A stretch of DNA of 44,035 nt from a virus: the IMG/VR virus record IMGVR_UViG_3300022745_000061, positions 1 to 44,035 of that record. The stretch is one strand, 5' to 3'. This document shows positions 15,279 through 40,906 of the stretch, one piece after another; the stretch's first letter is position 1, and every line of letters starts with the position of its first letter. The notes under the pieces were generated by a model. The model made no database searches, was not told the DNA's origin, and worked only from the letters and a program-made list of their open reading frames with translations. Both the position numbers and the translations under genes were made by a program.

Positions 15279-15643
15279 TGCCGTACATCAAGCAAGACCG
15301 ACGTGAGCATCTCGACGGGTTGGACGCACCCGACTGCGAAACCGCAGGCGAGCTGAACTACGTGTTCACGCAAACGATGTTCGACTGTTACCCAGACGTG
15401 AACCTGGCGTCGGCGTTCATCTCTGACGAGATCAACAACTACCGCCTCGCTCATGGCGAGTCGTACCAGACGTACAACGACATCATGGGGGCGCTGCACT
15501 GCGCCACCTACGAGCGCATCCGTCGCACAGGCGATCACACCTTCGACAGCGTGATTGCTCACCTGATGGCTGACCTGTACGTGGACTGGATTGCTCCGTA
15601 CGAGGACAAGAAGATCACCGAGAACGGCGATGTCTACGCATGA
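15278..15643 (+). CDS. DUF6899-like protein
   Basis: A 121-aa acidic helical protein beginning MPYIKQDRREHLD with AGELNYVFT soon after, as in the DUF6899-type proteins of phages. The ATG overlaps the preceding TAA. Its last codons (DVYA) overlap the start of the HNH gene. The role is unknown. Confidence 0.65.
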   Translation: MPYIKQDRREHLDGLDAPDCETAGELNYVFTQTMFDCYPDVNLASAFISDEINNYRLAHGESYQTYNDIMGALHCATYERIRRTGDHTFDSVIAHLMADLYVDWIAPYEDKKITENGDVYA

Positions 15644-16080
15644 AGCGTCGTCCTTGCAGCAAGTGCGGACGCAACCGAGCGGAACGCTTTTTCAGCGGGC
15701 CGCGAGGGCGGGTCTGTTCGTCCTGTCGGCGGAAGCGAGTCGCCTCCACTGGCAAGGACGCAAGGCTGCAAGCCACCTACGGGATTACGCTGGAAGAGTG
15801 GGAAGCCATCTTGGATTCCCAGGGTGGGGTATGCGGAATCTGCGGTGGTACACGGACGATGTACGACACGGATCACGATCATCAAGTGGAGAAGTTGCTT
15901 CGTTCACAAGGCATATCGGACTTGGAAGCAACGCGAATGAGTGTGAGGGGGCTCCTGTGCAAGACCTGCAATCGTCGCCTGCTGCCAGCGGCGAAGGACG
16001 ATCCCGAGAGACTGCAAGCGGCGATACGCTATCTCGAATCGCCGCCAGCCTCAGCGATCATCTTGGATTCCCTGGCGTGA
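15640..16080 (+). CDS. HNH / endonuclease VII-type nuclease 1
   Basis: A 146-aa zinc nuclease. CSKC (6-9) and CSSC (26-29) form an N-terminal zinc ribbon. CGICGG, then DTDHDHQ and RGLLCKTCNRRL, match recombination endonuclease VII, a Holliday-junction and branched-DNA nuclease of the His-Me finger group. Free-standing genes of this type can also act as homing endonucleases. It starts in an ATGA overlap with the DUF6899-like gene and ends in a GTGA overlap with the next. Its end (DSLA) resembles the upstream gene's end (DVYA) only weakly. Confidence 0.85.
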   Translation: MKRRPCSKCGRNRAERFFSGPRGRVCSSCRRKRVASTGKDARLQATYGITLEEWEAILDSQGGVCGICGGTRTMYDTDHDHQVEKLLRSQGISDLEATRMSVRGLLCKTCNRRLLPAAKDDPERLQAAIRYLESPPASAIILDSLA

Positions 16081-16193
16081 GGCCACAGGGAGTTGGCAAG
16101 CCACGCTCGTACAAGTGCCCTGCCTGTCAGGTTATGGGTGTCGGTGACGAGTGCTGGTACTGCGGCACGAACGCAATCATCAGGTCCAACTGA
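16077..16193 (+). CDS. 38-aa zinc-ribbon microprotein
   Basis: Begins at a GTG overlapping the nuclease stop. CPAC and CWYC, 10 residues apart, make a four-cysteine zinc ribbon that occupies most of the protein. The TGA overlaps the next ATG. It could bind a nucleic acid or a polymerase subunit; no target can be read from sequence. Confidence 0.6.
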   Translation: MRPQGVGKPRSYKCPACQVMGVGDECWYCGTNAIIRSN

Positions 16194-28404: not shown

Positions 28405-29025
28405 CTAGAGGCCCACCGTCTTGAACGCGTCGTACATGATCGCAGCCTCGGACGCCTGCCCGAAACTGATCGCACCCGAAGTCTGGTAGTGCTGCAGGCG
28501 GATGCGGACAATACCCGAAGGCGTGCCCGCAAGGCGCACGAACGGAGCGAAGCTGTAGAACTCTCCAGAACGGATCGTGGCGTACTGCACCGTCGACCAC
28601 GTGAAGTCAGCGTCCGCGGTCGAACCAGTCATGTTGATGCCGATACGGGCGCGGTAAGGCACCGTGCCAGCGCCACCAACCTGCGTCACCGAACCCCATG
28701 CCTCAACCACAATCGCCTTGCCAGGGTTAGCAAAGCTCAGAGTGTCAATCGTCTGGAACGTGTCGTTCGCAGTCAGAACATGCGACGAAGTCGCGTAGTT
28801 CGATGTGCGACCAACCAGCCCATCAACGTAGGTTTTGTTCGTAAGGTGGTTGCCCGACGACGGAGCGGTCGAACACGACAGCGCAGCACTCAGCGAGATG
28901 GTCGCATCAGCAACAATGCAATTGGTGTTGATGTAGCTGACGAGCGCGTTGAAGTTCGCACTGACCTGCGGCCCGTCGTTCACGTTACCATTGGTAAACG
29001 TGTTCGGAACGGAAACGGTACTCAT
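28405..29025 (-). CDS. Tail-fibre-like protein with N-terminal attachment segment
   Basis: A 206-aa protein that begins with NTFTNGNVNDGPQVSANFNA, the short segment found at the start of many phage tail fibres, followed by KTYVDGLVG and a beta-rich domain (about 75-206). It probably forms part of a receptor-binding complex with the neighbouring 148-aa protein. The ATG follows AAGAGGATTCGATC and overlaps the preceding gene's stop. Confidence 0.7.
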   Translation of the reverse strand: MSTVSVPNTFTNGNVNDGPQVSANFNALVSYINTNCIVADATISLSAALSCSTAPSSGNHLTNKTYVDGLVGRTSNYATSSHVLTANDTFQTIDTLSFANPGKAIVVEAWGSVTQVGGAGTVPYRARIGINMTGSTADADFTWSTVQYATIRSGEFYSFAPFVRLAGTPSGIVRIRLQHYQTSGAISFGQASEAAIMYDAFKTVGL

Positions 29026-30686
29026 GATCGAATCCTCTTGGGGATGTACTTGAGCGTAATAGCGTTCACGCTCCAGGGAATGTCGCCAGTAGCGGGACCA
29101 GACACCTTCATGGCGATGGCAGTGCCACGCCCGAGCAGGCCACCACGCTCGATGGATTGAGCGGCGGCGTTGATCGCCGTCGACCATGTCCCGCCGCCCC
29201 ACGTCGAGCCGCCCCAGGTTGTGGGAGCGGGCGGACCGACGATGTCCAGGTTGAACGAACGAGTGGGGGCAGTCAAGTCGTAGTCTCGGAAGACATCTGC
29301 AGTCAGCGTCACATCGCTGGCGCTGTCGCACACGATGATCGGGTGCTTCCAACGCTTGACGAGTGCAGCGTTTCCAAGGTCATACCACTTCGTAAACGTC
29401 CACGAAGTGACGCCAGTGTCAACGCCCACGCCACCAGACGCCGACAGGCGGTCCTTGAACCCGCCGTTCAACGTGTGTAGCTTCAACACGAAGCCTGTAG
29501 CCGCGTCAGACACAGCGAACCACTCACGGTCACCCGACGGCGGGTGCAACGTAGTGTAAGCACCCAACGGAAGGTTGTAGCGAGTCCATCCACCACCACG
29601 TCCCAAGCGAGGGTCGAACACGAACGTGATCTTGTTGACGGTGTCGCCACCAAGGGTCAGGCTGACCCAACAACGCTGGTTGACGTAACCGACCGTCGTG
29701 TTGATAACGTAGTTCGGATCAGCAGAAAGCTGGTCGATGGTCGTACCATTCCCATTGGGAGAGGTGATCGGCGTCAGCGGATACCACAAGTCGCGAACCG
29801 AGCTGCCATCGTAAAGCTGCAGCCCATTCGGCCACGAGAAGAAGTAGACGCCCTCGTCGCCCACAGCAATCGCACGCTGATGGACAGCACCGACCTTCCT
29901 GGAGACGTTCTCCAACTGGAAGCTCTGAGCGTCGTACCCTCGCAGTACCCACACGCTGTTGTTCTTGAAGATCACCAGTTCCTTCTGGAACGAAACCATC
30001 CCAGTGATCTCGTCGCCGTCGCCACGACCGACAAAGAACCAGTCGTTGGTGCGGTAGTCTTCCGCACCCTTCGACGCGTGCAAGTCAGAGAACGGGTGCG
30101 AAAAACGCACCCTGTCCCGCTGCATCGTTCCCGCCTCGTTGATGTTGGCGTGAAACAGGTAGTTCAGGTGGTGGCAGATGTACTTTGCCTTCGGCATCTT
30201 GCCGCCAGCAGGTGCAGCGAAGTTGTCGTTATACGCACCGTGGGAGTCGGCCAGTACTGTGGTGGCAGCACCACTCCACTTGAACGCAACCTGCTCAGCG
30301 TTGCGCTGAACGTACAATAGGTCGTGAGCCTGCGCAGCGTTCATGATGCCCGTCGTTGCAAGGGCATCAGGGTTCACTGTGGTGAAGTTGCCGCCAGTTC
30401 CGTAAGCGAAGTCGTTACCCGCTTGCACGCAAATGTGCTTGTAGTTCCCGTCACCAGACGTGAACGTCCACAGGTTCTTCGGCTTGACAGCGGTCGGAGT
30501 AGCGTCGGCAATCGCCGTGAGGTTGATTGCCTGCGCACAGTCCCGACGGCGGAAGCCGCCGTTCGGGTCGAAGTCCACGTTCAAGCAGTCAGTGACCTGC
30601 GAGTCCTGAAGCTGAAACGCATCTGCGTTATAGTTGAGTCCACCCGTGAAATCACGGACAGGGAGAACTTCTACGCGACGAGGCAT
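29022..30686 (-). CDS. Tail nozzle / stabilisation-like protein (T7 gp12 or P22 gp10 type)
   Basis: A 554-aa beta-rich protein. DFTGGLNYNADAFQLQDSQ (about 12-30) and CLNVDFDPNGGFRRRD (about 34-49), then WVLRGYD and an Asp/Gly/Trp-rich propeller-like body, match the proteins that form the lower tail tube or nozzle of podoviruses. It would dock onto the adaptor ring. Order in the operon (adaptor, HNH, nozzle) fits tail assembly. Confidence 0.75.
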   Translation of the reverse strand: MPRRVEVLPVRDFTGGLNYNADAFQLQDSQVTDCLNVDFDPNGGFRRRDCAQAINLTAIADATPTAVKPKNLWTFTSGDGNYKHICVQAGNDFAYGTGGNFTTVNPDALATTGIMNAAQAHDLLYVQRNAEQVAFKWSGAATTVLADSHGAYNDNFAAPAGGKMPKAKYICHHLNYLFHANINEAGTMQRDRVRFSHPFSDLHASKGAEDYRTNDWFFVGRGDGDEITGMVSFQKELVIFKNNSVWVLRGYDAQSFQLENVSRKVGAVHQRAIAVGDEGVYFFSWPNGLQLYDGSSVRDLWYPLTPITSPNGNGTTIDQLSADPNYVINTTVGYVNQRCWVSLTLGGDTVNKITFVFDPRLGRGGGWTRYNLPLGAYTTLHPPSGDREWFAVSDAATGFVLKLHTLNGGFKDRLSASGGVGVDTGVTSWTFTKWYDLGNAALVKRWKHPIIVCDSASDVTLTADVFRDYDLTAPTRSFNLDIVGPPAPTTWGGSTWGGGTWSTAINAAAQSIERGGLLGRGTAIAMKVSGPATGDIPWSVNAITLKYIPKRIRS

Positions 30687-30689
30687 AGG

Positions 30690-31055
30690 TTACTCCCAAC
30701 TTAGGACATAAGCAAGCAATGAAGCAACGCGGTCAGGATCATCTCTAAGGTGACCAAGAGCCTTGTTGCAAGAAGCACACAGGGCACCGCGGGCCTGTCC
30801 TGTTTCGTGGTCGTGATCGATTTGTAGACGCTTAGAACGATGTCCTTGCGATTCTGTAGCGCCACAAGCAAAACAACCGCGAGCAAACCATTCTAGTACA
30901 GTGTCGCCATCCAATGAATATCGCACTTTGTACTTGCGCAAAATGCGACAATCATTGCATTCGTTTTGCAAGCCGTCTTCGCGTGCAGCATTTTTGCTGA
31001 ACTCGCCGCCTTGACCACACGTTGAACACAGCTTGACGCCGTTCACGGTAGTCAT
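30690..31055 (-). CDS. HNH / endonuclease VII-type nuclease 3 (mobile)
   Basis: A 121-aa zinc nuclease: CSTCG and CNDC near the N terminus, CFACG, LQIDHDHETG and RGALCASCNKALGHLRDDP. It interrupts the tail gene order between adaptor and nozzle. The real start is the ATG at 31055; longer open frame upstream overlaps the adaptor. It ends LSWE, and the upstream adaptor ends YSWE; the shared DNA block AGTTGGGA is retained in both. Confidence 0.85.
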   Translation of the reverse strand: MTTVNGVKLCSTCGQGGEFSKNAAREDGLQNECNDCRILRKYKVRYSLDGDTVLEWFARGCFACGATESQGHRSKRLQIDHDHETGQARGALCASCNKALGHLRDDPDRVASLLAYVLSWE

Positions 31056-31056
31056 C

Positions 31057-31764
31057 TCATTCCCAACTGTAGATCGGCGGACGCAGTGCTCGTTCGGTGC
31101 GATAGGCTTCAGGGCGCTTGCCACGATTGACCACAATCGGCTGCGCCCGAACAGAGTCAACGTAACGCAGCTTGAGCTGCTTGATCGTCGGCAGGAACGA
31201 GTTCAGATAGAGCTGAGCCATCTCAGGATCGTCCTGCTGGGCGTACGTACGCCCCAGCGTATAGTCAGCAATCAGTCGATGGTACTCTTCGGGACAATCA
31301 GGAGCGCTGTTCGTCAACAGCCAGTCAGTGGGCTGACGAGTCCCCAGGATCGTGTAGTTTTCAGCCGAACTAGGCGTCGGCCAAAGAAAAAGGGACCTCC
31401 CCCACACCGAGAACTCAAACGGTGTTCCCTGAGACGGCGAGTCCTGTCGCCACCCATCCCGAGCCTGCCTCTGCTGAACGGGCTGAAGGCTCCAACGGGG
31501 ACCGCGTACGTCCGCGATCGTCTGCAAAGGGGTAGGGGAGGTCAAACCCGTGTACGAATCGAGATCGTACTCGGCCTGACCTGCGGTCGTGGTGAACGAG
31601 TAGGCAACGTGCAGCCACGACGGAGTATCATCGAACTCGCCAATGATACGGTTGTATCCGTCCTGCATGAAGATGTCGAGGACGGTCGACGGGACCTCAT
31701 CAGCCTGCACGTCGAGATGATCGTACACGTACTGCCTGATGTCCGAAGGCGCAAGTGCAGTCAT
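31057..31764 (-). CDS. Head-to-tail adaptor protein
   Basis: A 235-aa protein resembling podovirus adaptor proteins (P22 gp4 or T7 gp11 type): an N-terminal helix pair with IRQYVYDHLDV and FMQDGYNRI, a beta-rich middle (about 90-140) with LFLWPTPSS, and a helical end (about 160-205). It would form the ring between portal and nozzle. The start overlaps the preceding stop (ATGA). The protein ends YSWE. Confidence 0.7.
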   Translation of the reverse strand: MTALAPSDIRQYVYDHLDVQADEVPSTVLDIFMQDGYNRIIGEFDDTPSWLHVAYSFTTTAGQAEYDLDSYTGLTSPTPLQTIADVRGPRWSLQPVQQRQARDGWRQDSPSQGTPFEFSVWGRSLFLWPTPSSAENYTILGTRQPTDWLLTNSAPDCPEEYHRLIADYTLGRTYAQQDDPEMAQLYLNSFLPTIKQLKLRYVDSVRAQPIVVNRGKRPEAYRTERALRPPIYSWE

Positions 31765-32381
31765 CGCGGGAGGATTCCTAGCTTCTGCATGATGAGGATC
31801 TTTTGCTTCCTGGCAGCCGCACTCAGCGGACCGCCAGACTTCCACCGACGACCCAGCGCAGCGGCCACGTCGTTGGCGTACTGCTCGTTTGGGCTCGTGT
31901 GCGTTGAGCCACCAGCGGGACCATCCAGCGGAAGGTGCCCGAAGATTGAACGAGGCGTATCAGCGGGTGGAACCCAACCCATCCGCAACTTGGTGTAGTT
32001 GTCGGCAGCGGCCTCATTCTGCAGCCGCTTGTCAGCAACCAGATGACCGAGTTCGTGTGCAACAACGAACTGGTCATACTTGTGACCGTGCTTCAGACCC
32101 ATCATCTGAGTCTCACGGTTGTTCGGGTTGAAGGCCACAGTGTTCTGGCCCTGCATTGCAACTGCCCGAGGAGTGTAGTTCCCCTCGTCCTGCACGGGTT
32201 GAAACGGCCCGATGTTCTGCTTGTCGTAACCGACACTGCCATCCTCAAATCGAGTAGGCACCTGATGGTACGATGTAGGCATAGTGAAACGGGCGTCAGG
32301 AACGCCCGCCTTCTGCTTCAGTTTGTTGAACAGCAACTCCAAGTTGAGGAGATGCTGAGCGGGCTTTGGCCTAGGGGGCAC
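31761..32381 (-). CDS. Zinc metallopeptidase-like virion protein (HELGH)
   Basis: A 206-aa protein with VVAHELGHLVAD (about 107-118), the classic HExxH zincin motif, followed by NEAAAD, where an Asn/Glu/Asp may supply the third ligand. It starts at GTG, overlapping the preceding gene by 11 bases. It is encoded among head genes, so it may process virion proteins or host surface proteins. Phage proteins with HELGH near head genes are known, but the target here is unknown. Confidence 0.7.
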   Translation of the reverse strand: MPPRPKPAQHLLNLELLFNKLKQKAGVPDARFTMPTSYHQVPTRFEDGSVGYDKQNIGPFQPVQDEGNYTPRAVAMQGQNTVAFNPNNRETQMMGLKHGHKYDQFVVAHELGHLVADKRLQNEAAADNYTKLRMGWVPPADTPRSIFGHLPLDGPAGGSTHTSPNEQYANDVAAALGRRWKSGGPLSAAARKQKILIMQKLGILPR

Positions 32382-32631
32382 TCTTCAACGCCTTCAGGTG
32401 TCCGACACAGTGATCCGTGCCCTTCGCCTTCGGGGCCTTGCAGGGTGCTCCCTTCTTCGTGGTTCCAGCACAACCAGTGTGCTCTGCAACCTCGTCACCA
32501 GCGTAAGGCGCGCCGCTGAAGGGGGCGGGCTCGCCATAAGCGTAGCCCACCGCCCTCCCATACGGCTCACCGTAAGCACTGCCGACAGCAGTGCCCTGGC
32601 TTCCGACAAGGATGCCCTTGCCGCTCGACAT
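32371..32631 (-). CDS. Small Gly/Tyr-rich protein with C-x-PC-x-C-H motif
   Basis: An 86-aa protein. The N-terminal half is low-complexity (repeated AYGEP and GYAYGEP). The C-terminal half has CAGTTKKGAPCKAPKAKG and HCVGHL, a cysteine/histidine motif found in many small phage and bacterial proteins and likely to bind zinc. It lies between putative decoration and peptidase genes. Its virion role is unknown. Confidence 0.65.
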   Translation of the reverse strand: MSSGKGILVGSQGTAVGSAYGEPYGRAVGYAYGEPAPFSGAPYAGDEVAEHTGCAGTTKKGAPCKAPKAKGTDHCVGHLKALKSAP

Positions 32632-33050
32632 CAGCTACCCACGAACCGAGCGCGGAACTGCGCTGTGGCAGCGATAGCGTTACCCGTACCGACCTGAGCA
32701 CCAGCAGACTGGATCTTCAGGAGCGGAGCCTGGGGCGTACCGTTCGTGTTGTTGTCGAGGAAGTAGTTGTAAGTGACAGTACCGTTAGCGGTGTCCCACT
32801 GAGCCTTCGTGTACGGAGCATCCACAGACCGAGACGCACGAATGAACATGTCGTCAATCTGCTTCAGACCCAGCGCACGGAGAAGACCCGTGTGGGTGGT
32901 GCTGCCGACGACCACCGAAGTGGTCGCCAGCGGCACGCCGTTGGTGGTAGAGTCACCCGTGTCGAAGTCGACGGTAGCGGAGATTGCCCGCTTGCCATCA
33001 ACCGTGACCTCTTGCTTGATGTCACTGAGCGTGATGATCGCAGCAGCCAT
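32631..33050 (-). CDS. Virion protein, possible head decoration
   Basis: A 139-aa strand-rich protein with Thr/Ala/Val richness (about 35-60 and 90-139) and a RALGLKQIDDMFI helix in the middle. It is encoded after the capsid gene with the 122-aa protein, a usual site for decoration or head-completion proteins. I recognise no specific family. Confidence 0.65.
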   Translation of the reverse strand: MAAAIITLSDIKQEVTVDGKRAISATVDFDTGDSTTNGVPLATTSVVVGSTTHTGLLRALGLKQIDDMFIRASRSVDAPYTKAQWDTANGTVTYNYFLDNNTNGTPQAPLLKIQSAGAQVGTGNAIAATAQFRARFVGS

Positions 33051-33068
33051 GCTGTGCTACTCCTTTGC

Positions 33069-33437
33069 TCAGGTAACGTCGAGGACAGTGACCTGGAACG
33101 TCTTGCTCGCACCAGTCACAGCCGCAGCAGGCAGCGAGTCAGCGTAAAGCTGAACCGTGTCCGCAGCGGTGACCACGCCCCAGATGCGACCGAGGTTCGC
33201 CAGCGCAACCGTCGGCGCACCGACGATGACGATGTCGCCCACGGCGGCACCAGTGACGGTCGTGGTCGCAGCGAACGCCGCAGTACCGACCAGGCCAGCG
33301 GCCTGGGCCGACACCGACGGAACCGCCTGCGTGACCGACTTGGTGAAAGCACCCTTGATCGGGCCAGAAGCACCGAGGAAGAGCGACTCCAGGATGTAGG
33401 GGATGTCCTTGGACAGATCCGCGTTGGCAGCAGCCAT
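33069..33437 (-). CDS. Virion protein, probable head decoration or spike
   Basis: A 122-aa protein. Its second half (GDIVIVGAPTVALANLGRIWG, then a strand and SLPAAAVTGASKTFQVTV) follows a pattern common in small beta-sandwich phage proteins encoded right after the capsid gene. It may trim capsid vertices or capsomers. The ATG follows AGGAGG. Confidence 0.65.
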   Translation of the reverse strand: MAAANADLSKDIPYILESLFLGASGPIKGAFTKSVTQAVPSVSAQAAGLVGTAAFAATTTVTGAAVGDIVIVGAPTVALANLGRIWGVVTAADTVQLYADSLPAAAVTGASKTFQVTVLDVT

Positions 33438-33447
33438 CAGAAGCCTC

Positions 33448-34449
33448 CTAGCTCTTGTTCGTCAGAACGCCGAGGAACCGACGGTTGTTGGTCACGAGGT
33501 TTCCGTAGCACAGGATCTGCGAGTACTTCGCATCCTGACCGTGAGGCTTCTCGAACGGCGTGGGCTTGAACCACACGTCGCTGTGAACCTTCAGCTTCAG
33601 GAACTTGCTGTTGAGGAAGTACATACGGTCGGTGACGGGCGTAGCCCCACCGATGTGCTCGTCCCAGAGGACAGGAGCCGACTTGTACATCAGGTTCTCG
33701 AAGCCCGCCGACGCGGCCTTCGGGTCCTGGAACCGCTGCGACGGCTGAAGCAGCGACTCGTACTTCTCCCACAGCGCCTGGCCCGTGATGATGAACTCGG
33801 GACGGACGGTACCCGCCGAACAACGGTTGAACATGTTCGACATGGTGGGGATGGACAGAGCCTGCGTGGTACCGTTGACCTGGTTCTGCCACCAGGAGTT
33901 ACCCGCAGCCTCAGAGTCGATGTTGCCGACGAACGTGTTGGACGAACCAGCCACGTACTCCGAGTCACCCTTGGTCGACGTGGTCTCGGTGTGCGACACG
34001 ATGGCCGCGATACCGTTCCAGTTGCGAGTGTTGGTGGTCGGGTTGTCGAACAGCATCGTGTTCAGACCGTCAGTGATCGACAGCTCAAGCTGGTCGACCT
34101 TGGCCTTCAGGAGAGCGATGACAGCCTCACGACTGTTGTTCTTCGCCTCCTCGATACCGCTGATGGCGACCGTACCCGCGTACTGCTTCCAGTCGTACAC
34201 CGCGGAAGTGATGCCTTCCTGCGGCGTGGTCGAAAGGGAGTCGTACGCCTGGTAGGCACCGACGGTGGTGTTGGACGCGTAGAGGATCGGCTCAACGAGC
34301 TGCTCCCCGCCGCCGACCTTCTCGATGTTACCAGCCTCACGCAGCCAGTACAGCAGAGTGCTGTTGCCGAAGATGTTGTCTTCGAGCTTAGGCGTGTAGT
34401 GCTTGAGCGTGGTGCTGATAATCGCGTCGAAGGAGCTGTTACCAGCCAT
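33448..34449 (-). CDS. Major capsid protein
   Basis: A 333-aa protein with the expected length and order for a HK97-fold capsid protein. The N-terminal arm (about 1-35, ends NIFGNSTLLYWL), a long helix (about 108-130) rich in Glu/Lys/Leu, and the strand-rich A-domain-like segment with VRPEFIITGQALWEKYE (about 210-226) support this. It lies directly after the scaffold gene. Confidence 0.85.
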   Translation of the reverse strand: MAGNSSFDAIISTTLKHYTPKLEDNIFGNSTLLYWLREAGNIEKVGGGEQLVEPILYASNTTVGAYQAYDSLSTTPQEGITSAVYDWKQYAGTVAISGIEEAKNNSREAVIALLKAKVDQLELSITDGLNTMLFDNPTTNTRNWNGIAAIVSHTETTSTKGDSEYVAGSSNTFVGNIDSEAAGNSWWQNQVNGTTQALSIPTMSNMFNRCSAGTVRPEFIITGQALWEKYESLLQPSQRFQDPKAASAGFENLMYKSAPVLWDEHIGGATPVTDRMYFLNSKFLKLKVHSDVWFKPTPFEKPHGQDAKYSQILCYGNLVTNNRRFLGVLTNKS

Positions 34450-34474
34450 GCGTGATTATCTCCGATGTGAGGTT

Positions 34475-35224
34475 CTAAATGGAACCGTTGGACTGAAGTT
34501 CAAGGAGAGCATTCGCCATAGCGTCGTTGATGTTGTTGACCTCACGGAACTCGGGGACCTGGCCCCCAAGCTGCGAGGAACGACCTGCGACAGGCGGAGC
34601 GCTACGCTTCGCCTGCAGTGCCTGAGCGTTGTGCTGTGCTCGCTGCTCGGCCGTCTGGCGCTCTTCACGCCAATCCAGATAAGCAGCTCGCAGGTTCGGG
34701 ATGTTGTTCTCGGCCGCATACTCCAGAACCGCCATGCGGTCAAAGTCCTGGTACTGCGACTCAAGCTGCGAACAGATCCCGTCAAGCTGACGCTCGAACT
34801 CCTGCTGCTCGATTTCTTGGAAACGCTGGTCGTACTCTCGGAACTTCTGCTCACTCGGGTCGAGGAGGTTCTCCTCGGTGTCCGCCAGAAGATTCTGCTG
34901 AAGTGCTTCCAGTGTCGCCTGCGGATTCTCGATCAGGGCCTCCATCAGCGCAAGCGCCTGGGCTGCCTCTGCTCGCTCCTGCGCTGCCGCCTGAGTCTTC
35001 TTGGTGTAATCAGACTGGCGCAGGTAGCCCTTCTCCAGCTCCTCCAGCGGAACCTGGGTTCCGTCGGAAAGGGTGTAGAAGGAAGTATCCTGGGTTTCGG
35101 TGGTGCCACCATTGTCAACAGGAGCATCGTGTTCGCCAACGCCAAGTGCCTCAGCGAGTGATTCCTCCAGAGACGGAGCCTCACCAACGAGGGGATCAGT
35201 AGTCCCCTCAGTCTCGTTTCCCAT
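34475..35224 (-). CDS. Scaffolding protein
   Basis: A 249-aa highly acidic, helical protein. A disordered N terminus (1-45) is followed by FYTLSDGTQVPLEELEKGYLRQSDYTKKT (in short pieces), a hallmark of phage scaffold proteins, then long coiled coils (about 78-160, 180-210) and an Asn-rich C-terminal segment that would bind the capsid. It sits immediately before the capsid gene and just after the P2 element. Confidence 0.85.
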   Translation of the reverse strand: MGNETEGTTDPLVGEAPSLEESLAEALGVGEHDAPVDNGGTTETQDTSFYTLSDGTQVPLEELEKGYLRQSDYTKKTQAAAQERAEAAQALALMEALIENPQATLEALQQNLLADTEENLLDPSEQKFREYDQRFQEIEQQEFERQLDGICSQLESQYQDFDRMAVLEYAAENNIPNLRAAYLDWREERQTAEQRAQHNAQALQAKRSAPPVAGRSSQLGGQVPEFREVNNINDAMANALLELQSNGSI

Positions 35225-35288
35225 TGTTGCCTCTCGTGGAGTCCGCCAGCGGCGGGTGTTCCCGTTTGGAACTAGGTATGTTGGGCAT
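35208..35288 (-). CDS. Possible 26-aa leader peptide
   Basis: A short frame starting at an ATG that follows P2 and an AGGGG ribosome-binding site at good spacing (7 bases). It ends 17 bases inside the scaffold gene. It may be a real microprotein or a leader that couples translation of the scaffold gene. The peptide is basic and polar (MPNIPSSKREHPPLADS). Confidence 0.35.
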   Translation of the reverse strand: MPNIPSSKREHPPLADSTRGNNGKRD

Positions 35289-35294
35289 GATTAT

Positions 35295-35324
35295 GCCCCT
35301 ATGGAGAAGTACGTTTTGTTCCGC
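35295..35324 (-). promoter_or_regulatory. Late promoter-like element P2 (before the scaffold/capsid genes)
   Basis: On the minus strand, GCGGAACAAAA, 11 bases, then ATAGGGG. It follows the stop of the Ig-like protein gene and leads into a short leader and the scaffold gene. Placing it before the most abundantly needed proteins fits a strong late promoter. Confidence 0.6.
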
Positions 35325-35335
35325 CCACGATTACG

Positions 35336-35797
35336 CTAAGCGGTACCAAGTACCTCATCGTCACCCGTGCGGGAGACGAGTACCTCATCGACGGCAAACC
35401 CAATCGGGTCGAACTTGGGACGAACCGTCAAAGAACGTGACGTGGCATACGTGGTTGGCGTGCCAGGATTGATCTCGCCAAACATCTGAATCTCGTAGGT
35501 TCCCTTGGCGGCGGGAGTCCACGTAGCCTGCCAAAGATCGGCTGATCCAACCTGCGTCATGTAGGCGGTCGCAGTGACCGCAGTGCGAACGCCGCTGGAG
35601 TCAAACCCCCAAACCTTCCATTGCGCTGCCTGGTCAAGCGCAAGAACTCCTGTTGAGTCCACAATCTGGAAGTAAAGCGTGCAGGGCACGCCGACAGCAA
35701 TCTCGTCGGGAGCAAGAATGCAGGCGTACGCACCGAACGAAAGAGGCGTGACCGAAACGGTACCTGAAGCACCGCTGAAGAGTAGAAGTAGACTCAT
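35336..35797 (-). CDS. Ig-like virion protein
   Basis: A 153-aa protein starting MSLLLLFSG, then two strand-rich halves that read like an Ig or FN3-type domain (ADLWQATWTPAAKGTYEIQMFGE near residues 88-110). It is encoded between portal and scaffold with other putative fibre proteins. It may decorate the virion and bind host surface sugars. The ATG overlaps the upstream stop. Confidence 0.65.
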   Translation of the reverse strand: MSLLLLFSGASGTVSVTPLSFGAYACILAPDEIAVGVPCTLYFQIVDSTGVLALDQAAQWKVWGFDSSGVRTAVTATAYMTQVGSADLWQATWTPAAKGTYEIQMFGEINPGTPTTYATSRSLTVRPKFDPIGFAVDEVLVSRTGDDEVLGTA

Positions 35798-36468
35798 TGC
35801 GGCCCCATGCCCATCATACACTGTTCGGGCATCTCACCAAAGAAACCCGCCCCAAGCAGGCCCTGGTTGGCCGCTGTGGTCCAGGACCAAATGCCAAGGT
35901 GGCTACCGAAGACGTGGGAGGAGTGGGTGGCATCAAGGTCTTCGGCCACGCACATGCGACCGCCGTTGTAGATGACCGTTCCCATGTTGAAGGTTTGCGC
36001 GCTCGTCACTGCCGAGAAACCGATGACGGCCAGGTATAGCAGGTTGTCCTGAGCACTGAACGTCGAACCAATAGCCTCGGTTCGGGTCGTTCCAGAAGCC
36101 TGGTTGTCCATGCCACCCGTGGCGTTTGCCCAGTTGTTGGGCGTCGTCGAGTAGGCGGTGGTACCCGAGTACTCGGTGATGAACAGGCGCATGACCGTGG
36201 CGGCCGTAGCGGTGGCCGTCACCGTCGTGGACTCAGTACCGTCAGCAACCTTGGCGAACAACGAAATCGACGAACCCGAGGCGCTCCAGGTGGCCTCCTG
36301 AATCAAGGTCCAGCCCGTGATGGCGTTGGTCAGTTTGGGTTTGTTGGACATGACGCACGCGATCAGCAGATCACCCTTGGTGGGCGTAGCTGCGTACGTT
36401 GCGCTGATCGATGCCGAAACACCCGATCCGCCGTTCGCGTCCTGAGAGGCGATACGAGCGATGCCCAT
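35794..36468 (-). CDS. Putative beta-sandwich virion protein
   Basis: A 224-aa Thr/Ser/Ala-rich protein with repeated strand patterns (TGWTLIQEATWSASGSS, FITEYSGTT, YLAVIGFSA) resembling the jelly-roll proteins of phage fibres and prophages. It could be a spike or receptor-binding protein. It overlaps the next gene by four bases and abuts the previous. Confidence 0.6.
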   Translation of the reverse strand: MGIARIASQDANGGSGVSASISATYAATPTKGDLLIACVMSNKPKLTNAITGWTLIQEATWSASGSSISLFAKVADGTESTTVTATATAATVMRLFITEYSGTTAYSTTPNNWANATGGMDNQASGTTRTEAIGSTFSAQDNLLYLAVIGFSAVTSAQTFNMGTVIYNGGRMCVAEDLDATHSSHVFGSHLGIWSWTTAANQGLLGAGFFGEMPEQCMMGMGPQ

Positions 36469-36704
36469 CAGAAGTCCTCGGTGTACCCGACCAGCGACTT
36501 GAGAGCGGGCGGAACCTTGGTGGCCTTGAGGATGCCATCACGGGCATCCGAAAGCACGACTCGCAACTTGTCCTTGACCTCCTCGTCAGAGGGGCCATCA
36601 ACGTCAGTAATGTGAACGGTCAGCGTGGTTGGAGAGTCGTTGACCATCATCACAATGGTCATGACCTCGGCATCAGCGTCTACAATCTTCCAAGAATCAA
36701 CCAT
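36468..36704 (-). CDS. Small acidic protein
   Basis: A 78-aa protein with strand-rich first half (WKIVDADAEVMTIVMMVND) and helical second half (SDEEVKDKLRVVLSDAR). It is encoded between two putative fibre proteins. It may be a fibre chaperone or a structural part; no family is recognised. Confidence 0.6.
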   Translation of the reverse strand: MVDSWKIVDADAEVMTIVMMVNDSPTTLTVHITDVDGPSDEEVKDKLRVVLSDARDGILKATKVPPALKSLVGYTEDF

Positions 36705-36709
36705 GAGAC

Positions 36710-37837
36710 CTACTTGTACATAAGGTTGACGATGACATCGTTAGCACCAATAGCGGTGGTGTCGGCATCAGCGATCAGACCCGTGATGGCAATGGCAATA
36801 CCAGTACCAAAAGCGATACCTGACACGAACTCGGCGGCAATCGCGCCCGAACCTGACGTGCCGCCAGGAATCAGAAGCGTCATGACGGGAGTGTCCGAAC
36901 CGACCGTGGGGGCAGACGCCTTGTTGTACAGCTTCACAAAACGGGCAGCGGCGTTGGTGTTAGTAATGTACCAACCATACACCTGGCCAGCAGAAGCCTT
37001 CACGCTGTTGGCGTTAGTGGTACCAGCCGACAACAGACGATAGATTGTCAGACCGCCAGACGTGGCAGGCGTTTGCGTGACAGTGGCCGTGTTGCCCACG
37101 TTGACGTGCAAACGACCCGAAGCGTCGGTGTTCAGCGTCGCGTAGTCGCCGTCTGTGCCAGCAGAGCTGCTCGCCGTGTCCGCACGGCGTGTCAGCGCAA
37201 CAGTACCAAGATCGCCCGAAGCGTGAACGGCGTCCTCGGCGTACTGTGTACCACCACCACCGCCGCTGATGACGGTGACAGGCAGAGGATCAGTAGAACT
37301 GATGTTGGCGGCACCGCCGCTCTTGGCGAGGACAAGGCCAACCACCGCACGGGTATCCGTACCAGCGCCAGTATCAAGGTCTGCGGTCGTTAGCTCAGAG
37401 TCGACGGTGACCGTGCCCGAGACGCCGACCGTACCACTGATCGGCTGTGTGGCCTGCCAGAAAGTACCACTCACGGGGATGGCGGTACCACCGCCAACAC
37501 CCTGAACAGAGATCACATCAGCGGACGGCGTACCCGCCGTACCAAGAGCAGGCTGCTTGGCGGCAGTGGCAGCGCCCGTTGGGAGCGGCAGCGCCGCAGC
37601 CGAAATCGGCTGAGTCGCCTGCCAGAAGGTGCCAGTGACAGCGATCGTTGCGTTGGTGACGTTGACCTTGAGACCGTTGGTTGCATCGCCAGGAAGCCTG
37701 GCGGAGCTATCCTCAGTGCCGTCCACCAGCTTCACAAGCTGGACATGCTGTCCGCCTGCAAGCTGGTCGGTAGCAATCACCGTCGAAGCGGGGATCGTGG
37801 CGAGGGTAGCGGATTGTGTGGTTACATCATTCGCCAT
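36710..37837 (-). CDS. Fibre or spike protein with repeated GTFWQATQPIS segments
   Basis: A 375-aa protein. VTGTFWQATQPIS (about 67-79) and VSGTFWQATQPIS (about 121-133) repeat, separated by low-complexity Ala/Gly/Thr sequence; a beta-rich C-terminal domain (about 265-375) follows. Such FWQATQPIS-type repeats are common in phage fibre or virion surface proteins. The early part suggests a triple-stranded shaft. The unusual location between portal and scaffold is noted. Confidence 0.65.
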   Translation of the reverse strand: MANDVTTQSATLATIPASTVIATDQLAGGQHVQLVKLVDGTEDSSARLPGDATNGLKVNVTNATIAVTGTFWQATQPISAAALPLPTGAATAAKQPALGTAGTPSADVISVQGVGGGTAIPVSGTFWQATQPISGTVGVSGTVTVDSELTTADLDTGAGTDTRAVVGLVLAKSGGAANISSTDPLPVTVISGGGGGTQYAEDAVHASGDLGTVALTRRADTASSSAGTDGDYATLNTDASGRLHVNVGNTATVTQTPATSGGLTIYRLLSAGTTNANSVKASAGQVYGWYITNTNAAARFVKLYNKASAPTVGSDTPVMTLLIPGGTSGSGAIAAEFVSGIAFGTGIAIAITGLIADADTTAIGANDVIVNLMYK

Positions 37838-38070
37838 TAGTAGTACGTCTCCGTGGCGCGGTTATCCCACACGCCTGAGCCCTCGTTCGTCCACTGGATG
37901 TTCGTGGGGCTTCCGTTGGTGAGTGTGACCTTCTTGATCGTCCAAGCCGCGGCTGAAGACGCGGGAGGAGTACCCGTCCTGTCGTAGTCGCCGTAACCGA
38001 CGTAGATGACAGTGGGTAGAATGTCGACCCGCTGAGGCGAGCGACGACCGTCGTAAGTACTCCGACTCAC
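37837..38070 (-). CDS. Small virion-associated protein
   Basis: A 77-aa protein, partly strand-rich (VIYVGYGDY, WTIKKVTLTNG). It starts at a GTG overlapping the preceding stop (GTGA) and shares a base with the next gene. It fits a minor virion or fibre-connector protein; no family is recognised. Confidence 0.6.
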   Translation of the reverse strand: MSRSTYDGRRSPQRVDILPTVIYVGYGDYDRTGTPPASSAAAWTIKKVTLTNGSPTNIQWTNEGSGVWDNRATETYY

Positions 38071-38357
38071 GTCTTCGTCGGAATCCAGTACACGTAGACC
38101 GCTGTGGCAGCCGCACCAAGCGTGCAATACAGCTTGGCGAAGTTGATACCCTCAGGGCCGAACGAGTTGTGGTTCGGGGCCAACACCGAAGCGATCTGGT
38201 TCGCAGCGGTCGCGCCGTCCACGTCGTTGAAAAACGTGGTCTCAGCGGTACCACCGACGACCTTGACGCCGATGAGGCGACCCGAGTTGGCAGTGACAGC
38301 ACCGCTAGCGGTGAGGCGAGTGGTGGTAGCGCCCATAGCGGCGTAAGAAGAAGACAT
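38067..38357 (-). CDS. Small virion protein
   Basis: A 96-aa Ala/Thr-rich, strand-rich protein. Segments GRLIGVKVVGGTAETTFFND and AKLYCTLGAAATAVYVYW fit the small beta-barrel head or tail decoration proteins of phages. It follows the HNH gene; the HNH gene's stop lies two bases upstream of its ATG. Confidence 0.6.
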   Translation of the reverse strand: MSSSYAAMGATTTRLTASGAVTANSGRLIGVKVVGGTAETTFFNDVDGATAANQIASVLAPNHNSFGPEGINFAKLYCTLGAAATAVYVYWIPTKT

Positions 38358-38359
38358 GG

Positions 38360-38716
38360 TTATCCTGGTCGAGGGGTTAGATATTCTTTTGCCGCATCAA
38401 GCCACTCTAGTGAGTCTCTTAACCAGCCCAACGTTAAATTACATCTACGGCACAGAAGACCACGAACGCACTGTCCGCAAGAACGTTCTCCTGCGCAACA
38501 ACTGTGATCATGGTCAACTGCCAATCGCGTGACAGCACCACTTCCATGCTTATGCGTTTCTGGCTGACCACAAATCGCACACAATCCCCGTTGAGAATTC
38601 CACATGCGATCATATTCATCAGTGGTCATGTTGTACTTGTGCTTCAGTTTGGCTCGTCGGTCCCAATCCCTGGAACCATTTGCCAACTTCTTTTCACCTT
38701 TCTTCACTCCCCGCAT
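38360..38716 (-). CDS. HNH / endonuclease VII-type nuclease 4 (mobile)
   Basis: A 118-aa basic zinc nuclease: CAICGQPE, then LAVDHDHSC, CGQCVRGLLCRRCNLTLGWLRDS. It separates the 69-aa gene upstream from the 96-aa virion gene downstream. The ATG at 38716 is chosen for its basic start (MRGVKKGEKK). It ends TPRPG; the upstream gene ends IPRPG. All four shared codons (Pro, Arg, Pro, Gly) differ at the third base between the two genes. Confidence 0.85.
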   Translation of the reverse strand: MRGVKKGEKKLANGSRDWDRRAKLKHKYNMTTDEYDRMWNSQRGLCAICGQPETHKHGSGAVTRLAVDHDHSCCAGERSCGQCVRGLLCRRCNLTLGWLRDSLEWLDAAKEYLTPRPG

Positions 38717-38720
38717 TTGA

Positions 38721-38930
38721 TTACCCAGGGCGTGGGATCGGCATGTTGGTGATCGCAACAGGCATCGGTTCGGGGTGGTCGTCACCCTCGGCACGAGCCA
38801 GCTTCGATGCACCAATCAGGTCACGAATAGCAGACAGATCGACGTTGACGTTGACTGGCTGCTGCTGTTGCGAACGTTGCATCATCCGCATCAGCATCAT
38901 GAACATCATGGGGGTCAGCGTATCCATCAC
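38721..38930 (-). CDS. Small Met/Gln-rich protein
   Basis: A 69-aa protein with a Met-rich N terminus (MMFMMLMRMMQRSQQQQP), a strand/helix middle and a Pro-rich end (MPIPRPG). It overlaps the portal gene by four bases. It could be a portal-associated or scaffold-like peptide; no family is recognised. Its end is duplicated, with other codons, in the following HNH gene. Confidence 0.6.
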   Translation of the reverse strand: MMDTLTPMMFMMLMRMMQRSQQQQPVNVNVDLSAIRDLIGASKLARAEGDDHPEPMPVAITNMPIPRPG

Positions 38931-40906
38931 TGACCCTGCAGCAAGCCGAACTGGTTCTGGAGTTGGTGGGTGATGCCCGCAGGCACACCCTGGATCGGAG
39001 CGGGGTTCTCGGGCGGCACGTTCGGGCCAGCGGGCGGCTGAGGGCCACCCGACTGCTGCACGCTACCGTCGCCCCCAGGCGGCGGAGGCTGCTGCGGCTG
39101 GTTCGGATCACCACCGCCAGGCGGCGGCTGCATCGGCATCCCCGTAGCGGGGTCCACCATCGGCATCGGGGCGTTGATGAACTTCTCGGGGTTCTTCATC
39201 CCGAAGCCGTCCCGCAGCACCTGAGACAACAGCTCAGGCACGTTGATGACGCCCATGCTGATGAACGGTCCCAGCGCCTGTAGGAGCTGCTGCGCCTGCT
39301 GTCGCTTGAATGTGTCGTTCTTCGGCTGGGTAGAACCCGCCTCAACCTCGTAGAGGTATTCGCCCTGAATGTCCTCGGGCGTGAAGTCAACCCACACCTT
39401 AGAGCCATCGGCTCCGACGACAAGCGCCACCGAGTCCACAGTCATGAACTTCTGGGCAAGTTGCACCAGCATCCGAGAAATCTCGGAGGCCACTGCCTCG
39501 ATCTTGTCGAGCTTGTCCGCCGCACGAGCGTTGGCAGCATCCTGAATGATGCTGGCCTCGGTCGCAGTCCGACGGATCTCGGGCAGCGAGCCACGCATGT
39601 ATTCGTTCACGCCAGTGACACGGTCGATGTCCGACTCGATGACCTCGGAGTGCTGCGTGTAGAACTGAGCGTTAGCGTCGTTACGAGGCATCGGCATGAT
39701 GACCTCGCTGATGGGAATGTCGCCCTCGACGGGAATAGCGGTGTACGGCTGCTGTGAAGTCAGGGCGTCGAGACCCTCAGGTCCGAACGCGTCTTCCTTG
39801 TACAGCCACTTTGCGATGTCCAGCTTACGGGCCTGCACCATGTCCGAACGGGTATCGTTCAGCTCATCCTGCAGCGGCTCGATCGCCTCGATCTCACCGA
39901 TTGCGTAGAACTGGTCGGGCACCGTGTAGTTCGGGATGTATACGAACGGCTGGCCGTACGGGTACGGGAACGGAGTCGGGTCTACAAGGTAGCCCACGTC
40001 CTCCTGCTCCACGAAAGTACACATCCACTCCTGCTCCAGGTCGTAGAACTCCCAGAGCGTGACACGACCCTCGTCCTCGGGGACGTGGTCCTTGTTGTCC
40101 TCGTTGAACCACTTGAGAGAAGAGTCGGACTTGACCTTCTTGCGAGAGTTGTTGTAGCGGTCGTCCTTGCGGACCCGCTCCAGCGGAAGCACCAGCTTCT
40201 GTGCGATCCACTTGGCGTCCTGCATCGTCGTCGCCTCAGGATCGACGTAGATGTCGAACGGCGAGATGCGCTCTACGAACGGAGCGTCTTCGGTGACCTC
40301 GATGGCAGTGTCGGGCATCGCCCCGTGGATGTCCTCAGGGGAGGGAGCCAGATGTGCCATGTGCGGATTCTCAGCCGCAAAGCTGTCGGCCTGCTCGTTG
40401 AGCGCCCCGTGGATGTTGTCGTACTCATCCTGCTCCATCGGGCGCTCATGCTCCGCATAGCGCCACCCGACCTTGAGCCATCCCACACCGTAGATCAGCG
40501 AGTCCTTGACCGCAGCGCGGAAATCCTGCTTGATGTGGTTGTGCCGCCACCAGTAGTTGACGACAGCCTCCACGATAGCGGCCTGATCGTCAAGATCCTC
40601 GGTGCGTGCGTGAACCGTGACCTTCGGGTGGTTGACAGCCACCGAAGGCTCGATGACGTTGATCGTAGCGAACGCGATCGCAACAGCGATCGAGTCCATG
40701 TCGTCATCCAGTGGATGCAGCATCTTGAGGCGGTAGATGTCACGCAGCCGACGCCACGTGTCGTCCCACGCCTCAGCCTCACGATAGGACTTCGCAGCCT
40801 TGACACGGCTGCAGTACTTCGCGAGGGTATCCTGCTTCTCGCCACGTCCCCACTTGATGAGTGGGGTTACCTGATCCCGCTCAGCGGGGGACGGATCAAT
40901 CTGCAA
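38927..40906 (-). CDS. Portal protein
   Basis: A 659-aa protein with the length and order of podovirus-type (P22-like) portals. The helical N-terminal part includes WRRLRDIYRLKML and YWWRHNHIKQDFRAAVKDSLIYGVGWLKVGW, typical of portals; the middle carries FDIYVDPEA and PFVYIPNYTVPDQFYAIGEIEAIEPLQDELN, and the C terminus is Pro/Gln/Gly-rich. It forms the ring through which DNA is packed, with the terminase encoded nearby. Confidence 0.9.
   Translation of the reverse strand: MQIDPSPAERDQVTPLIKWGRGEKQDTLAKYCSRVKAAKSYREAEAWDDTWRRLRDIYRLKMLHPLDDDMDSIAVAIAFATINVIEPSVAVNHPKVTVHARTEDLDDQAAIVEAVVNYWWRHNHIKQDFRAAVKDSLIYGVGWLKVGWRYAEHERPMEQDEYDNIHGALNEQADSFAAENPHMAHLAPSPEDIHGAMPDTAIEVTEDAPFVERISPFDIYVDPEATTMQDAKWIAQKLVLPLERVRKDDRYNNSRKKVKSDSSLKWFNEDNKDHVPEDEGRVTLWEFYDLEQEWMCTFVEQEDVGYLVDPTPFPYPYGQPFVYIPNYTVPDQFYAIGEIEAIEPLQDELNDTRSDMVQARKLDIAKWLYKEDAFGPEGLDALTSQQPYTAIPVEGDIPISEVIMPMPRNDANAQFYTQHSEVIESDIDRVTGVNEYMRGSLPEIRRTATEASIIQDAANARAADKLDKIEAVASEISRMLVQLAQKFMTVDSVALVVGADGSKVWVDFTPEDIQGEYLYEVEAGSTQPKNDTFKRQQAQQLLQALGPFISMGVINVPELLSQVLRDGFGMKNPEKFINAPMPMVDPATGMPMQPPPGGGDPNQPQQPPPPGGDGSVQQSGGPQPPAGPNVPPENPAPIQGVPAGITHQLQNQFGLLQGQ

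Follow-up and report, generated by a model that had tools for sequence, protein, structure and literature searches.

Putative tail-restoring endonuclease VII-type genes at the 3' ends of phage genes

Mobile endonuclease genes at the ends of host genes

Mobile endonuclease genes located at the end of a host gene have been described in organelles and in phages. The closest examples are the mobile-ORF endonuclease elements of fungal mitochondria, reported in Allomyces atp6, Rhizopus atp9, Mortierella cox2, and Glomus atp6, atp9, cox2, and nad3, in which the inserted C-termini show 64–81% DNA identity to a close relative and the native C-termini 91–98% (PMC3630166). Homing has been proven for F-CphI, an enzyme with the endonuclease VII (EndoVII) motif DHHRN (PMC6083498). 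Another example is gene 51 of mycobacteriophage Omega, a free-standing HNH gene by lysin A, where 35 bp have been lost and 'a new 3' end' has been reported (PMC3706429).

Here, a viral DNA of 44,035 nucleotides (IMG/VR record IMGVR_UViG_3300022745_000061, the whole of which is called the window) has been analysed. It carries three EndoVII-type genes (Table 1). Judging from the sequence, the one that follows the 69-aa gene (locus 1) is in all likelihood a homing endonuclease gene that entered the 3' end of that gene and restored its tail.

Table 1. Features of the EndoVII loci, with positions in the window.
Feature	Positions	Strand	Remarks
Portal gene	38927–40906	minus	
69-aa host ORF, locus 1	38721–38930	minus	GTG start, ATG at 38927; no known family; overlaps with the stop codon of the portal gene
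Proposed supplied (recoded) host tail, locus 1	38721–38735	minus	CCA CGC CCT GGG TAA, PRPG and stop
EndoVII-type (DHHRN) putative homing endonuclease gene, locus 1	38360–38716	minus	118 aa; ATG at 38716, stop at 38360
Proposed displaced native tail (last nuclease codons), locus 1	38360–38374	minus	CCT CGA CCA GGA TAA, PRPG and stop; proposed by analogy with the empty-site comparisons
96-aa downstream gene, locus 1	38067–38357	minus	starts 2 bases past the nuclease stop (CC ATG); structural genes beyond
Host gene, locus 2	31057–31845	minus	262-aa head protein (phrog_399); ends IYSWE and stop, AGT TGG GAA TGA at 31057–31068
Second EndoVII gene, locus 2	30690–31055	minus	121 aa; ends YVLSWE and stop, AGT TGG GAG TAA at 30690–30701; then CCT ATG
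Downstream gene, locus 2	29022–30686	minus	554-aa virion structural protein; directly adjoins the 262-aa homologue in nuclease-less relatives
Third EndoVII gene	15640–16080	plus	146 aa; overlaps the upstream gene by ATGA

Gene tails at the nuclease loci of the window

The 69-aa gene ends in ATC CCA CGC CCT GGG TAA (IPRPG and stop) and the nuclease gene behind it in ACC CCT CGA CCA GGA TAA (TPRPG and stop), with the four final residues the same and all four codons different, each at the third base. The matching PRPG tails and the recoding of four codons out of four had been described in the original prediction, and both were confirmed on re-reading of the sequence. The same prediction had called the second gene an HNH gene; that it encodes a nuclease holds, but an EndoVII (DHHRN) type fits better than the classical HNH family. 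In fact, the protein matches Pfam Endonuclease_7 (E 7.5e-21, 74.3 bits against a cut-off of 23.6) and six PHROG 'endonuclease VII' families, and the EndoVII motif residues CX2-4C, DHDH, R, CX2C, and N are the same in all nine proteins that were aligned, among them the three of the window. The conserved domain of the locus 1 nuclease stops at KEYL, with TPRPG and the stop codon next; this domain ends in Y-L (or Y-V/I), and at locus 1, as in other elements, the shared tail begins right after it. The proposed displaced tail of locus 1 contains AGGA, a possible ribosome-binding site for the 96-aa gene.

The informative part of locus 1 is the protein match and not the codon differences. Four random synonymous draws would perhaps all differ in about a third of cases, by our own estimate, and because such draws would often all differ the recoding alone is weak evidence and not decisive. 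On the protein side, an exact suffix match of at least four residues was found in 4e-5 of 99,008 unrelated pairings of a gene tail with an EndoVII tail (exactly three residues in 2.6e-4), and none of 136 other EndoVII tails and none of 728 other gene tails scored as well against the locus 1 partner as the observed pair, whose tail-copy score is 25. These figures bear on the explanation by coincidence, according to which purine-rich ends (GGG or GGA before TAA) are favoured in both genes because each must provide a ribosome-binding site for a start codon next to it, and the PRP match arose by chance. GGG or GGA does precede the stop in both tails, 5–8 bases from the downstream ATG, but a ribosome-binding signal accounts for the glycine codon at most, and only one of 1018 adjacent pairs of non-nuclease genes, which are under the same ribosome-binding-site pressures, shares three or more final residues. 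The third EndoVII gene, at which no copy of the upstream gene's tail was found, agrees with coincidence, whereas at locus 2 of this genome a copy has been confirmed independently; coincidence is therefore regarded as very unlikely. A small cysteine-rich reading frame follows the third EndoVII gene (15640–16193).

At locus 2, the comparison with an empty site is available. Relatives about 50% identical (L013–L018) have no nuclease at this site, and in them the 262-aa homologue ends in Y-x-WE and stop directly before the start of the next gene. For example, the junction of L016 reads TGG GAG TAG CCG ATG CC, against TGG GAG TAA CCT ATG CC at the end of the locus 2 nuclease, and TGGGAGTAACCTATGCC, at the nuclease end, has its match in TGGGAGTAGCCGATGCC at the empty-site junction. 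Since the nuclease-less relatives carry the matching junction, it is at the nuclease end that the native junction is found, and the present end of the host gene is the additional one. The two tail copies of this locus both retain AGT TGG GA.

For locus 1, no detectable relative of the 69-aa gene was found in the phages or genome contigs searched, nor of the 96-aa gene in the phages or viral contigs searched, and a DNA search of phages did not reveal an empty site. The portal relatives (L001–L008 and L102–L179) and the portal matches in genome contigs have neither gene. Relatives with about 60% portal identity were tried as an empty site and rejected, because they carry at that position a different, unrelated gene of about 65 aa that ends in FPS or YPS. 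As its own empty site was not found, we infer the membership of locus 1, very probably correctly, from the matching tails, from locus 2 with its confirmed copy, and from the evidence for the class given below.

Alternatively, the nuclease gene might belong to a group I intron or an intein, and splicing would then complete the host protein. Introns do encode some EndoVII-type homing enzymes (PMC6083498), and in Gordonia phage Nordenberg an EndoVII-like domain lies, intein-like, within the reading frame of the terminase large subunit (L349, 497–2890). At locus 1, however, the host gene is a complete ORF that runs to a stop codon of its own, and the nuclease is a separate ORF; moreover, models of group I and group II introns gave no Rfam match in window positions 30000–39500. 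A group I intron was rejected for locus 1 on both grounds, and the supplied tail makes splicing needless in the phages Fabian, AnarQue, and Manuel described below, so that this possibility has a negligible probability.

Empty and filled sites in other phages

Insertions with exact boundaries have been obtained from three sets of phage isolates. In Streptomyces phage Fabian, a net insertion of 330 bp affects a sigma-K-like gene, as seen by comparison with Geostin, RetrieverFever, Vorvolakos, Gremlin23, and FlowerPower, which are 99.7–99.8% identical to it in the shared part. The gene ends in VRSNAAWRASQSSQYEG and stop in Geostin and in VRSNAAARAELSRNWEG and stop in Fabian, where TGATGA, the EndoVII gene, and then the unchanged native DNA GGCGAGCGAGTCAGTCCTCTCAGTACGAGGGCTGA follow; the native tail WRASQSSQYEG with its stop is now found just past the nuclease stop, and the new host tail, ARAELSRNWEG, is of equal length. 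Gordonia phage AnarQue differs from CloverMinnie (98.9% identical) by a net insertion of 446 bp at the end of DNA polymerase I. This gene ends in TGG CTC AAG GTC TAG in CloverMinnie and in TGG CTT AAA GTA TGA in AnarQue, both encoding WLKV and stop, and in the LKV tail of AnarQue all codons have been changed and all residues kept; its nuclease ends in CGG GTC TAG, from where the native DNA continues. Finally, comparison of Streptomyces phage Manuel with WRightOn and RosePharie reveals that the native endolysin end CAG CCA AAG AAG TAA GGAG now ends the nuclease gene (YLQPKK and stop), and that the endolysin of Manuel ends in CAG CCT CGA TGA (QPR and stop). In all three pairs, the codons now at or just past the nuclease end are those carried by the nuclease-less phage, and the host tail has been rewritten. 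The pairs were chosen partly for tails that hinted at a copy or for the availability of close relatives, and for this reason they prove the architecture and not its frequency. HNH-annotated genes, apparently of another family, are present in Fresco (L359) and MakoManhole (L360) at the same 3' end of DNA polymerase I as the EndoVII gene of AnarQue, which is a recurrent insertion site; no tail copy was found at these two HNH genes.

Longer tails have been found at a transglycosylase gene, a host that in nearly all other fetched loci is not followed by a nuclease. In L033, this gene ends in HRYKGDACRAKAHSDQRGWY and stop and the EndoVII gene starts at its stop codon (TGATG); past the nuclease, the last 26 codons recur as an orphan copy, GLKIKEHRYRGDSCSALGHSDRKGWY and stop, and then come TGATG and the next gene. 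In L184, L187, and L210, this next gene directly follows the intact transglycosylase end. L208 is a second filled site, with an orphan tail of 20 codons and different downstream DNA, which directly follows the intact transglycosylase gene in other phages. The orphan tails of L033 and L208 have 90% DNA identity to the tails of nuclease-less relatives, whereas the supplied tails of the two host genes reach at best 73% and 80% (median 57–60%), with the gene bodies at 87–94% to their nearest relatives. It is thus the supplied tail, and not the orphan, that is foreign. An extra ORF (MDNKEPDIYNLL onwards) between the nuclease and the orphan tail of L208 (2900–3640) reads through the orphan in another frame; in L033, a deletion appears to have removed most of this ORF.

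Other loci have tails of different kinds. In L019 (3800–4330), the last seven codons of the two LEGLRK tails have 19 of their 21 bases in common; this copy would be either recent or unrecoded, to judge from its letters, and because the two copies are nearly identical in DNA, recoding is not universal. The nuclease end of L019 keeps an ATGA overlap with the tail-terminator gene, as found between the native genes of Microbacterium phage Magritte. Genes related to the host genes of L065 and L095 end in KDME or KDLE; the nuclease of L095 ends in KDFE in frame, and in L065 KDFE is out of frame, 13 bases beyond the stop of the nuclease.

The near identity of the L019 copies, together with AGT TGG GA kept twice at locus 2, would suit a passive origin of the copies, in which a short target duplication or a short-homology repair was followed by drift and the recoding was neither carried by the insert nor protective; the new 3' end that followed HNH insertion in Omega has likewise been read as a by-product of repair (PMC3706429). 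However, the regions of Fabian and AnarQue are 98.9–99.8% identical to those of their nuclease-less relatives, and still it is the host tail that has been rewritten, with the displaced copy unchanged, and drift after insertion would have altered other sites too. In L033 and L208, moreover, the displaced copy and not the host copy resembles the relatives. A passive origin is accordingly judged rather unlikely, and insertion with a tail that was already rewritten is preferred.

As for frequency, 8 of 127 distinct EndoVII loci (window excluded) had a tail-copy score of at least 20, against 0.69 expected by host permutation (P≤0.0005), and five had a score of at least 25 (0.13 expected). The L260–L333 set alone, in an earlier test, gave a non-significant difference (2/24 vs. 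4/217, p=0.11); one of its two hits, L298, has a copy of 21 residues. Most of the EndoVII loci surveyed show no copy by the tail score, and neither do most of the named phages sampled. The score is conservative and misses short or length-changed tails, since Manuel and AnarQue, negative by this measure, were positive through comparison with their empty relatives. No useful relative of the L307 host gene was found in the phage collection.

A proposed element and its relation to known systems

The isolate pairs and the empty sites of locus 2 establish the tail-restoring architecture and the insertion of these genes into intact phage genes. In its outline, the plan put forward in the original prediction (entry at the 3' end, the native end kept as the nuclease tail, a recoded end given to the host gene) holds in phages at other EndoVII loci, by virtue of the nuclease-less relatives of AnarQue, Manuel, Fabian, L033, L208, and the second EndoVII locus of the window.

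The mobile unit would consist of the rewritten host tail with its stop codon and the nuclease gene, which often would not bring its own stop. This composition is proposed because in the positive cases the residues past the conserved nuclease domain come from the host gene (TPRPG at locus 1, SWE at locus 2, EGLRK in L019, QPKK in Manuel, each with its stop, and the final RV and stop in AnarQue). In a cell co-infected by a nuclease-less phage, the nuclease would cut that phage's gene at its intact 3' end, and repair off the nuclease-bearing genome would copy the recoded tail and the nuclease gene in between the gene body and its native tail. The displaced native end would be left as the last codons of the nuclease, its stop, and the start signals of the next gene. 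At locus 1, the host gene would have the supplied end CCACGCCCTGGGTAA, and the displaced native end would be CCTCGACCAGGATAACCATG; in a nuclease-less relative, the 69-aa gene would be expected to end directly in CCTCGACCAGGATAACCATGTCTTC. All three genes, that of the host protein, that of the nuclease, and the one downstream, could still yield their products, with no need for an intron or intein, and the recoded tail may block the cutting of the element's own genome and limit recombination between the tail copies. By analogy with homing endonucleases in general and with F-CphI, cutting of the native tail, repair copying, and homing are what we infer for these nucleases, and the recoding may have a role in cut-resistance.

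On balance, we favour the view that such elements are widespread and unrecognised in phages, as intron- and intein-free units in which an EndoVII gene, often without a tail or stop of its own, enters the last codons of important genes, brings a rewritten and uncuttable ending, and reuses the displaced ending as its C-terminus and as a start signal. They may account for some 'new 3' ends' and some mosaic ends of phage genes, with the warning that the last codons of a gene may differ in history from the gene body. The pairs Fabian/Geostin (Streptomyces) and AnarQue/CloverMinnie (Gordonia), 98.9–99.8% identical outside the insert and propagated on laboratory strains of these two host genera, make mobility and cut-resistance directly testable.

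No phage version of this plan was found in the open-access literature, the unexplained 'new 3' end' of Omega being the only near case. The original prediction had pointed to no described system with this exact plan; this holds for phages within that literature, where the phage version is apparently undescribed, but the plan is not new to biology, since fungal mitochondria have it (PMC3630166). The phage elements resemble the fungal ones in having an endonuclease gene directly after the host gene, a replaced C-terminus that is divergent in DNA and similar in protein, and the native C-terminus downstream (PMC3630166). The fungal native C-terminus is closer to those of relatives than the inserted one is (PMC3630166), as in L033 and L208, and in Fabian and AnarQue the native sequence is identical from the insertion point. 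In contrast, the fungal elements are mitochondrial and encode LAGLIDADG or GIY-YIG enzymes (PMC3630166), and since the phage enzyme is of the EndoVII type, the phage elements are a variant and not members of the fungal group. The fungal native tail is also a stretch left downstream (PMC3630166), whereas the phage tail often forms the last codons of the nuclease and the start signals of the next gene.

Similarly, the Omega HNH gene stands at the end of a phage gene that has a new 3' end, although this end has been put down to probable faulty repair or to a distant donor context and not described as a carried, restored tail (PMC3706429). In the excerpted account of T4, the free-standing mobE, segF, and others overlap the upstream stop codon with the nuclease ORF, which suggests coupled translation, and no tail copy is mentioned there (PMC2988022). 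More closely related in its enzyme is F-CphI, which shares with the phage nucleases the motif CX2C, DHDH, R, CX2C-N and is likewise encoded by a free-standing gene next to its target gene (PMC6083498). Free-standing homing genes of phages have to occupy a conserved gene while leaving it functional and their own genome uncut. F-CphI avoids self-cutting through a neighbouring group I intron in psbA (PMC6083498), whereas in the elements described here a rewritten ending of the host gene, brought by the insert, would be the answer to the same problem.
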